Origin: Johnsonella sp.
GTDB taxonomy: Bacteria > Bacillota > Clostridia > Lachnospirales > Lachnospiraceae
Direction: 5' to 3'
Assembly (NCBI GenBank): GCA_030529445.1
Contig: JAUMWW010000006.1
Location: 1-64,000, forward strand
DNA: 64,000 nucleotides
Position numbers and translations under genes: made by a program. This document shows, one piece after another, positions 6,889 through 10,274 of this stretch (positions are counted from its first letter, which is position 1; the number at the start of each line of letters is the position of its first letter). The notes beneath the pieces are model-generated. The model had not been told where the DNA came from, made no database searches, and saw only the letters and a list, made by a program, of their open reading frames with translations.

Positions 6889-8484
6889 TTGAATAGTCTT
6901 TTATTGCTTATTTCCGTGGTTATTCTTTGCTGCATTATATTAAACAGAATTTCAAGCAGGCTGGGGATACCGATGCTTTTGGTATTCATTTTGCTCGGAA
7001 TGTTTTTCGGATCGGACGGGCTGATCAAGATTGATTTTGACAATTATGAGCTTGCGGAAAAATTTGCGACCGTAGCGCTTATTTTTATCATGTTTTACGG
7101 AGGATTCGGCACGAACTGGGAGGAAGCAAGAAGCGTCGCCCTTCCCTCCATGCTCATGTCCAGCTTCGGCGTGATATTGACAACGGTGTTTACGGCGCTT
7201 TTTTGCCGCTTCGTATTAAATATCGCATTTGCCGAGAGCCTCTTAATCGGTTCGGTAATCGGTTCGACCGACGCCGCCTCCGTGTTTTCGATTCTCCGAT
7301 CCAAGAGGCTGAGTCTGAAATATCATACGGCGTCTTTACTCGAGCTGGAGAGCGGAAGCAATGACCCCTTTGCCTATATTCTTACCCTGATTGCGATTTC
7401 CATCATGCAGGGAGAGGCAAATATCAATAATATCTTATTTATGCTTTATACGCAGATCACCTTCGGGGTAGCGGCAGCTTTGCTGATCGCCTTTGCCGGC
7501 AAGGCGGTGCTGCGAAAACTCAGGATAGAGACGGCGGGATTTGAGGCGGCTCTGGTCATGGCGATCGCCCTCCTCTCCTTCAGCCTTCCTCTCATCATAG
7601 GGGGAAACGGTTATCTGAGTGCGTATATCACCGGGATTATTTTGGGAAACAGCGATATCCGCAATAAGAGAGAGCTCGTGCATTTTTTTGACGGAGTTAC
7701 GGGAATCATGCAGATGCTGCTCTTTTTCCTGCTCGGGCTGCTTGCTTTCCCCTCGGTGCTTCCGAGCGTTGCGAGGCAGGCGCTTTTGATCGCCGTATTT
7801 ATTACATTTGCGGCGAGACCTCTTGCGGTTTTTGCCATACTCACTCCTTTAAGAAGCAAGCTCGGACAGAAAATGGTCGTATCCTGGGCGGGGCTGAGAG
7901 GAGCGGCTTCCATTGCATTTGCGGTTATGGCGATGATGCGGATCGAGACAAAAAACGATATTTTTCATATTGCCTTTTTCGTGGTTCTTTTCTCGATACT
8001 GGTTCAGGGTTCCTTGCTTCCTCTGCTTTCCAAAAGCCTGAATATGATCGACAAGAATTTTGACGTCATGAAGACCTTTTCGGATTATAGCGGAGATACG
8101 CCGCTTGAGTTTGTCCGGATCATGATCGAAGCGGGGCATATATGGTGCAATGCGAAGATCAAGGATATCACGATGCCTCCGGATACCCTGGTCGCGGTCG
8201 TGGAAAGGGAGGGGAAGGGAATCGCTCCAAAGGGAGAAACCCTGCTTTGTGAAAACGATGTGCTGACGCTTGCGATTAAATCGGTGCAAAAAAGCGAGAA
8301 AGCCTTTCTGATCGAAAAAAGAGTTGCGGAAGACAGCAAGATGAAGGGAAAGACCCTTGCCGAGGGGATGAAAAATAAGAAAGGACTCGTGGTTTTGATT
8401 ATCAGAAACAAGGAGTTCATTATTCCGAGGGGGGATACGATTATCTTCGAGGATGACGTGCTCGTGCTCAATCATGTCGGCTAA
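6889..8484 (+). CDS. Potassium/proton antiporter, CPA1 (NhaP2/CvrA-like) with two RCK_C domains
   Basis: A 531-residue protein. Residues 1-390 contain about 12 membrane segments of a cation/proton exchanger (signature GSTDAASVFSIL and ESGSNDPFAY). Residues about 400-531 hold two tandem TrkA-C/RCK_C-like domains, each ending in an acidic strand (LLCENDVLTL, IIFEDDVLVL). It exports K+ or Na+ in exchange for H+. RCK_C domains of Gram-positive K+ transporters are known c-di-AMP receptors, and this window encodes the c-di-AMP synthase, so regulation by that nucleotide is a fair inference. Translation starts at TTG 6889, set by GGGAGGT six bases upstream. Confidence 0.88.
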   Translation: MNSLLLLISVVILCCIILNRISSRLGIPMLLVFILLGMFFGSDGLIKIDFDNYELAEKFATVALIFIMFYGGFGTNWEEARSVALPSMLMSSFGVILTTVFTALFCRFVLNIAFAESLLIGSVIGSTDAASVFSILRSKRLSLKYHTASLLELESGSNDPFAYILTLIAISIMQGEANINNILFMLYTQITFGVAAALLIAFAGKAVLRKLRIETAGFEAALVMAIALLSFSLPLIIGGNGYLSAYITGIILGNSDIRNKRELVHFFDGVTGIMQMLLFFLLGLLAFPSVLPSVARQALLIAVFITFAARPLAVFAILTPLRSKLGQKMVVSWAGLRGAASIAFAVMAMMRIETKNDIFHIAFFVVLFSILVQGSLLPLLSKSLNMIDKNFDVMKTFSDYSGDTPLEFVRIMIEAGHIWCNAKIKDITMPPDTLVAVVEREGKGIAPKGETLLCENDVLTLAIKSVQKSEKAFLIEKRVAEDSKMKGKTLAEGMKNKKGLVVLIIRNKEFIIPRGDTIIFEDDVLVLNHVG

Positions 8485-8565: not shown

Positions 8566-9606
8566 TCAGACAATCAGAATGGGCTTTTTGTCTTCTTCGA
8601 CGACCCTGCCGATGATGCTGGCTTCGGGGCATACTTTTTTGATTGCCTCAAAGACTCTCTGCGCATCGTTTTCGGCGACGCTGTAGATCAGTCCTCCGGA
8701 GGTCTGGGGATCAAAAAGAAGATCCGCGACATTAACGGGAAGATGATCGGGAAGGAGCACTTTTTTCATCAGATGCTTTTTATTGGCATAGGTTGCCGCG
8801 GGCACCAGACCGAATGAGGCATAGGAGAGCGCCCCCTCAAGCATGGGCACCTTATTGTATTCGATCGCAATGCTCAGACCGCTTTTATCGCACATCTCGA
8901 AGCTGTGCCCGATCAGTGAAAAACCGGTAACATCCGTGCAGGCGTGGACGGAATCGAAGCTTCGCACCGCATCGGCGGCATATTTATTCAGCTTTGTCAT
9001 CGAAAGAAGGAGCTTTTTATATTGCTCCTCGCTCAGAAGCCCTCCCTTATGCCCATTGATCAGGACTCCCGTGCCGATCGCCTTGGTCAGAATCAGAACA
9101 TCGTTTTTTTGGATGCCGTTATTGCAGAGGACTTTTTTCGGGTGCACCAGTCCGGATACGCAGAGCCCGTATTTCGGAACCTCGTCCTGTATGGTATGCC
9201 CGCCGACTACGATCGCTCCCGCCTCTCTGATCTTGTCATAGCCGCCGCGCAGAATCGCATTGACCGCTTCCGGAGGAAATTTTGCCGGGTACATCAGTAT
9301 ATTCATGCAGAGCTTCGCTTCTCCTCCCATCGCCCAGACATCGGAAAGAGAGTTTGCGGCAGCGATCTGCCCGTATTCATAAGGATCATCTACGGCGGGG
9401 GGAAAGATATCTACAGTCTGTATCAGCGCGAGATCTTCCCTGAGCCGATAAACAGCCGCGTCATCGGCGGTATCAAAACCGACCAGAAGATTCGGGTCGG
9501 AAAAAGAAGGCAGATTGCGCAGAACCTGCGCAAGGTCATCGGGACCTATCTTGGAAGCTCAGCCTCCGCAGCCTCCCGTCATTGTTATCAACTTAATTTT
9601 ATCCAT
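8566..9606 (-). CDS. selD: Selenide, water dikinase SelD, selenocysteine-containing
   Basis: Read with UGA at codon 16 (9561-9559) as selenocysteine, the gene gives 346 residues, the normal SelD length. The N-terminus reads MDKIKLITMTGGCGG-Sec-ASKIGP, placing Sec at the active-site position usually occupied by Cys or Sec, three residues before the essential Lys. There is no other stop up to 8566. Downstream are the expected DPNLLVG, DDAAVY, QTVD, DDPY and GQIAAANSLSD motifs. SelD makes selenophosphate from selenide and ATP for Sec-tRNA and selenouridine. A conventional call would begin at 9330 and lose 92 residues including the active site. GGAGA precedes the ATG. No selA, selB or selC lies in the window. 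Confidence 0.93.
9515..9533 (-). promoter_or_regulatory. Bacterial SECIS hairpin in selD
   Basis: On the coding strand an 8-bp perfect stem TTGCGCAG/CTGCGCAA closes a GTT loop, with a G directly before the loop U's as in bacterial SECIS elements. It begins 25 bases after the in-frame UGA, within the usual distance for SelB-dependent recoding. Confidence 0.75.
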
Positions 9607-9639
9607 GATTTCTGTCTCCGAAATTTCAAAAATATAATT

Positions 9640-9680: not shown

Positions 9681-9821
9681 GCGCTTCTTTTTAACCGGAA
9701 GTAAATGGGGATTTAGGGGGCATTCCTCCGGATCCGCCCCGATCTTTCGTATGGACGAGAACCGGGGAGTCTGCTAAGATAATAAAAACTGTTGAACTCA
9801 TCAAGAATAAGGAGAATATAT

Positions 9822-10274
9822 ATGTTGGAAATAGGAAGCAAGGCGCCGGAATTTTCTCTGCCCGATCAGAATAATCATATGGTAAGCCTTTCGGATTTCA
9901 GAGGAAAAAAGGTGATCCTGTATTTTTATCCGAAGGATGATACACCGGGATGTACTGCCCAGGCATGCAATTTTACGGAAAGATTTCCGCAGATTGCGGA
10001 GAAGGGGGCGGTGGTGCTGGGAATCAGCAAAGACAGCGTGGAGTCTCATCGGAAGTTTCACGCGAAGTACGGATTAAGCTTTCCTTTGCTTTCCGATCCG
10101 GAGCTCAAAGTGCTCCAGGCGTATGACGCATGGAAGGAGAAGAAGCTTTACGGAAAAAGCTTTCTCGGGGTCATCAGGTGCACGTATCTGATTGACGAGG
10201 AGGGAGTGATTATCAAGACGATAGCCAAAGCGAAGGCGAAGGAAAATGCGGATCAGATGCTGAAGTATCTCTAA
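9822..10274 (+). CDS. bcp: Thioredoxin-dependent thiol peroxidase (BCP/PrxQ)
   Basis: A 150-residue cytosolic peroxiredoxin. Peroxidatic Cys44 and resolving Cys49 are in TPGCTAQACNF, the PrxQ spacing of four residues between cysteines. It reduces hydroperoxides using thioredoxin. The start at 9822 is set by AAGGAG eight bases upstream; an upstream in-frame start at 9792 has no ribosome site. Monocistronic, ended by the terminator at 10316-10349. Confidence 0.95.
   Translation: MLEIGSKAPEFSLPDQNNHMVSLSDFRGKKVILYFYPKDDTPGCTAQACNFTERFPQIAEKGAVVLGISKDSVESHRKFHAKYGLSFPLLSDPELKVLQAYDAWKEKKLYGKSFLGVIRCTYLIDEEGVIIKTIAKAKAKENADQMLKYL

Follow-up and report, generated by a model that had tools for sequence, protein, structure and literature searches.

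The selD gene at 8566-9606 almost certainly encodes a selenocysteine-containing SelD, in which the UGA at codon 16 is read as selenocysteine (Sec), and the evidence that this recoded TGA specifies the active-site Sec of the enzyme is strong. The sequence establishes the reading frame, the protein family, the Sec/Cys site, the Sec machinery of the genome, its other UGA-containing genes and a hairpin that is both conserved and covarying. The features of the locus, in the coordinates of the window (the whole 64-kb stretch of DNA that was analysed), are as follows:

8566-9606, minus strand: selD, selenide water dikinase (selenophosphate synthetase), predicted to have 346 aa with Sec16; stop TGA at 8568-8566
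9559-9561, minus strand: in-frame TGA, codon 16, most probably read as Sec, at the active-site position of Cys17 in E. coli SelD
9615-9619, minus strand: likely ribosome-binding site GGAGA, 8 nt 5' of ATG 9606 (by inspection)
8566-9330, minus strand: truncated 254-aa ORF expected from a standard gene caller (table 11 ORF list)
9515-9533, minus strand: putative bacterial SECIS apical hairpin TTGCGCAG-GTT-CTGCGCAA, 8 bp, loop GUU (comparative counts and folding)
9534-9546, minus strand: GGUC-CCGAU-GACC, a small side hairpin that adjoins the SECIS stem on its 5' side and is possibly part of the SECIS region

The selD reading frame

Translation of 8566-9606 on the minus strand yields MDKIKLITMTGGCGG-U16-ASKIGPDDLAQVL..., a product of 346 residues with one TGA in frame ahead of the terminal TGA. 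It is matched by the NCBIfam selD profile TIGR00476 with 365.9 bits (cut-off 125) over residues 11-314, as a full-length family member, and the in-frame UGA is flanked on both sides by conserved homology, as in a selenoprotein gene. The initial annotation had described a frame running unbroken from ATG 9606 through one TGA into the SelD body, with which both the translation and the family score agree. Its placing of Sec at the active-site position of SelD is likewise borne out, as U16 aligns with Cys17 of E. coli SelD (PDB 3u0o) and the codon found in relatives is either TGA or TGC/TGT. Both residues stand three positions ahead of the conserved N-terminal Lys, the stretch U16-A-S-K19 corresponding to Cys17/Lys20 of the E. 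coli protein. Cys17 is the established catalytic residue of the E. coli enzyme.

Under translation table 11 the longest ORF in this frame has 254 aa and starts at ATG 9330, so that standard callers would truncate selD to 254 residues, as had been anticipated. This shorter ORF is mechanically valid, and it could be proposed that its 254-aa protein is the real product, the upstream frame being a leader or a regulatory readthrough. Such a protein would however be deprived of Sec16, of Lys19 and of the first ~92 residues of a conserved fold that matches E. coli and Aquifex SelD, and we regard this alternative as very improbable.

The gene stands alone, having a divergent bcp-like peroxiredoxin gene (9792-10274, plus strand) on one side and a convergent antiporter-like gene (6889-8484, plus strand) on the other, both named by inspection. 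It lies near the end of contig C38, while selC-selA-selB lie near the end of contig C8; as selD is within about 20 kb of selC in many relatives, the two contigs may be neighbours.

Selenocysteine machinery and other selenoprotein genes

Targeted searches were made in the genome, an assembly of 2.06 Mb in 40 contigs at 94.8% completeness. A tRNA-Sec with anticodon UCA is found at C8:72260-72352 (58.7 bits, above the Rfam cut-off), directly followed on the same contig by selA (586 bits) and selB (359 bits). The initial annotation had named the absence of selB/selC as what would refute a Sec reading; selA, selB and selC are all present, in one cluster, as expected where a selenoprotein gene is decoded. 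A glycine-reductase cluster is located upstream of these genes, and its grdA, with a TGA at codon 44 (U44), matches NF040748 with 264.6 bits through the TGA. Elsewhere, GrdB (TIGR01917, 721.5 bits) and two further GrdB-type genes (L054, L055 and L056, on contigs C5, C4 and C8) have their TGA at the known Sec site, within STUGTCTRCGA, and prdB (L057, contig C11; PrdB, TIGR04483, 416.7 bits) has one within AGUGTCHRS, also a known Sec site. The expectation that the organism decodes Sec and holds more UGA-containing genes is borne out by these at least five cases (GrdA, three GrdB-type proteins and PrdB).

A near-identical hairpin, CGTTGCGGYGCAACG, follows the TGA in all three GrdB-type genes. In the glycine-reductase locus (L008, 2789-5926, contig C8), grdA is followed by a single ORF of 849 aa matching both GrdC (component C beta) and GrdD (component C alpha), apparently a GrdC-GrdD fusion.

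The genome also has yqeB (C2:63220-63978, L074; 359.8 bits), which suggests a selenium-dependent molybdenum hydroxylase route, another user of selenophosphate. At the thresholds used, formate dehydrogenase (TIGR01591) and tRNA selenouridine synthase (TIGR03167) are absent from the genome. According to Zhang et al. 2006 (PMC1794560), Sec-decoding organisms devoid of FdhA all have a Sec-containing SelD, a pattern which this genome fits.

When the window was scanned for UGA-containing genes, 48 mechanical candidates were obtained, among which only selD was recognisable by eye as true. This bears on the possibility that the organism generally assigns UGA to some other amino acid, such as Trp, codon 16 then being an ordinary one. 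Nothing was found in favour of this reassignment, against which stand the termination of the selD frame itself at a TGA (8568-8566), the lack of any other recognisable in-frame TGA in the window, and the identity of the UCA tRNA as tRNA-Sec, adjoined by SelA and SelB; its probability is, in our assessment, practically negligible.

Conservation of the UGA codon across the family

A survey of 200 genomes of the same family returned 67 SelD matches, full-length or nearly so, of which 28 have one in-frame TGA and 39 have none. The active-site codon was read out for 53 SelDs, comprising members from the family and seven from named records: it is TGA in 30 (this selD and two named Tissierellales records included) and TGC/TGT in 23, nothing else being found. 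Where read, it is TGA throughout the group with an in-frame TGA and Cys in the group with no stop. A strong tRNA-Sec is present in 26 of the 28 genomes with a TGA SelD, versus 2 of the 39 whose SelD has no TGA (Fisher p 5e-14), although the relatives are not independent and shared descent inflates this and the other comparative p-values, overstating the number of events. For the two TGA genomes with no strong tRNA-Sec match (G015 and G124), selC was likely missed or unassembled, because selB sits on the selD contig in both.

Other combinations were also observed. Two genomes (G103 and G136; loci L067 and L068) have a Cys-type SelD together with tRNA-Sec and SelB, being Sec-decoding with a Cys SelD. 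One genome of 4.1 Mb in 3 contigs (G104) has a strong tRNA-Sec (L081, contig C1, 2719-2816; 67.9 bits, UCA) despite yielding no SelB (E<=1e-60) and no SelD above cut-off; this is either an orphan selC or a relic, and a glycyl-radical-activating-enzyme-like ORF lies close to it.

A conserved hairpin downstream of the UGA

Exactly 25 nt separate the selD TGA from the hairpin at 9533-9515, where we located the perfect 8-bp hairpin with a GTT loop that had been reported 25 bases 3' of the TGA. Perfect hairpins of at least 8 bp with a 3-nt loop occur only three times in the 64-kb window, and the chance of finding one in a 25-position target is ~0.1%, rising to 0.5% when loops of 3-6 are admitted. 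The folding energy, determined on the single sequence, is unexceptional (z = -1.4, with 15% of synonymous recodings folding equally well); not being significant, it was dropped as a proof of SECIS on its own and comparative counts were used instead. A search of the 64-kb window against Rfam, which may hold no bacterial SECIS model, gave no match at gathering thresholds.

The comparative data are the decisive evidence for the hairpin. In the register of its 8 pairs, 28 of the 30 TGA genes have 7-8 formed, whereas all 23 Cys genes have only 2-6 (p 7e-10); the element is kept with the UGA and absent with a Cys codon, as in selenoprotein genes. Over the TGA genes, 227 of 240 hairpin cells are paired, against a mean of 209 and a maximum of 219 upon shuffling, and 26-122 upon sliding the 3' arm. 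Selection on RNA pairing predicts that a synonymous site should track an amino-acid change ten bases away. Indeed, the third base of an Ala codon changes in step with the base that opens the opposing codon, in the combinations GCC-GGY (Gly), GCT-AGY (Ser) and GCG-CGC (Arg, as in this selD), with two G-U intermediates; this covariation is the best single sign of pairing within the hairpin. Two TGA SelDs (L030 and L041, of G019 and G063; SAAGUAAKLGPGVLTEILENLP), whose genomes both have tRNA-Sec, are devoid of the conserved 8-bp hairpin, and their SECIS must therefore differ.

These results also bear on whether the TGA could have arisen by an error in sequencing or assembly, or could mark a pseudogene with a nonsense mutation of the active-site Cys codon. 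A single substitution converts TGC or TGT to TGA, and an assembly of 40 contigs with 94.8% completeness speaks in the same direction; yet TGA occupies the same codon in 30 of 53 SelDs, the two named Tissierellales records included, the downstream frame and family score are intact, the Sec machinery is present and the hairpin is conserved only alongside TGA. By the comparative data this explanation is refuted in practice, and we hold it to be exceedingly improbable.

Most TGA genes have the side hairpin GGUC/GACC in front of the stem, and Cys genes have it in a less complete form (p 4e-8), a pattern that could partly reflect the conserved IGP motif, within whose codons the 5' arm lies. In this selD the side hairpin is kept via a one-base shift, Asp-Asp replacing the usual Glu-Thr. 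Among the 30 TGA genes, the motif Cys13-Gly-Gly-Sec16 (CGGU, with Cys three residues ahead of Sec) is confined to this selD and that of the nearest relative (G117). It is conceivable, albeit unlikely, that the selD SECIS of the family is a two-hairpin element (GGUC/GACC stacked on a bulge-free stem of 8-9 bp with a GUU-type loop) read by the local SelB unlike E. coli SelB, and that Cys13/Sec16 is a CxxU redox pair in the genus and its nearest relative.

Proposed mechanism and significance

With UGA 16 read as Sec, ribosomes initiating at ATG 9606 would reach the UGA, and SelB carrying Sec-tRNA(Sec) would bind the hairpin 25 nt downstream and deliver Sec, resulting in a 346-aa SelD with Sec16 as its predicted active-site nucleophile. 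This enzyme would make selenophosphate, used by SelA to form Sec-tRNA(Sec), so that SelD would be needed for its own synthesis. It would also supply the genome's selenoproteins of glycine/betaine-type reductases and of D-proline reductase and, probably, the selenium-dependent molybdenum hydroxylase route indicated by yqeB. We infer Sec insertion, Sec16 catalysis and self-dependence in this organism, the biochemical steps following the known pathway (PMC9312934).

Standard calling leaves a 254-aa fragment of a key enzyme of the selenium pathway, and the correctly read selD identifies the genome as a Sec-decoding one, with a selenoproteome of glycine/betaine/proline (Stickland-type) reductases. 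In the mixture of Sec and Cys SelDs within the family, nature provides a clean example of Sec/Cys exchange that goes along with the gain or loss of a SECIS.

Comparison with known systems

Sec-containing SelD is a textbook selenoprotein, Clostridia included, which is common in Sec-using bacteria and has been known for decades. The present selD is another case of this widespread enzyme, which merits correct annotation and is not a discovery. The literature treats it as general knowledge that SelD is frequently a selenoprotein in its own right (PMC4561486, PMC1794560); it is one of the five selenoproteins most widespread in bacteria (PMC9312934), and Clostridium difficile is listed with a SelD selenoprotein (PMC1794560). 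Like these bacterial Sec-SelDs (PMC1794560, PMC4561486), the protein belongs to the same family and has its UGA at the homologous active-site position, a SECIS just downstream and Sec/Cys interchange between relatives; it differs from those Sec-SelDs by C13-G-G-U16, shared with one other of the 30 TGA genes. E. coli SelD (PDB 3u0o) is of the same family by sequence (E 1e-63), with Cys17 in the place of Sec16.

In respect to the RNA element, selD and the SECIS of the E. coli fdhF type have in common a hairpin shortly after the UGA and a GU-containing loop on an apical stem. The fdhF-type element has a bulged U in the upper stem, whereas the 8-bp stem of selD is perfect, with no bulged U, and is directly preceded on its 5' side by the small GGUC/GACC hairpin.
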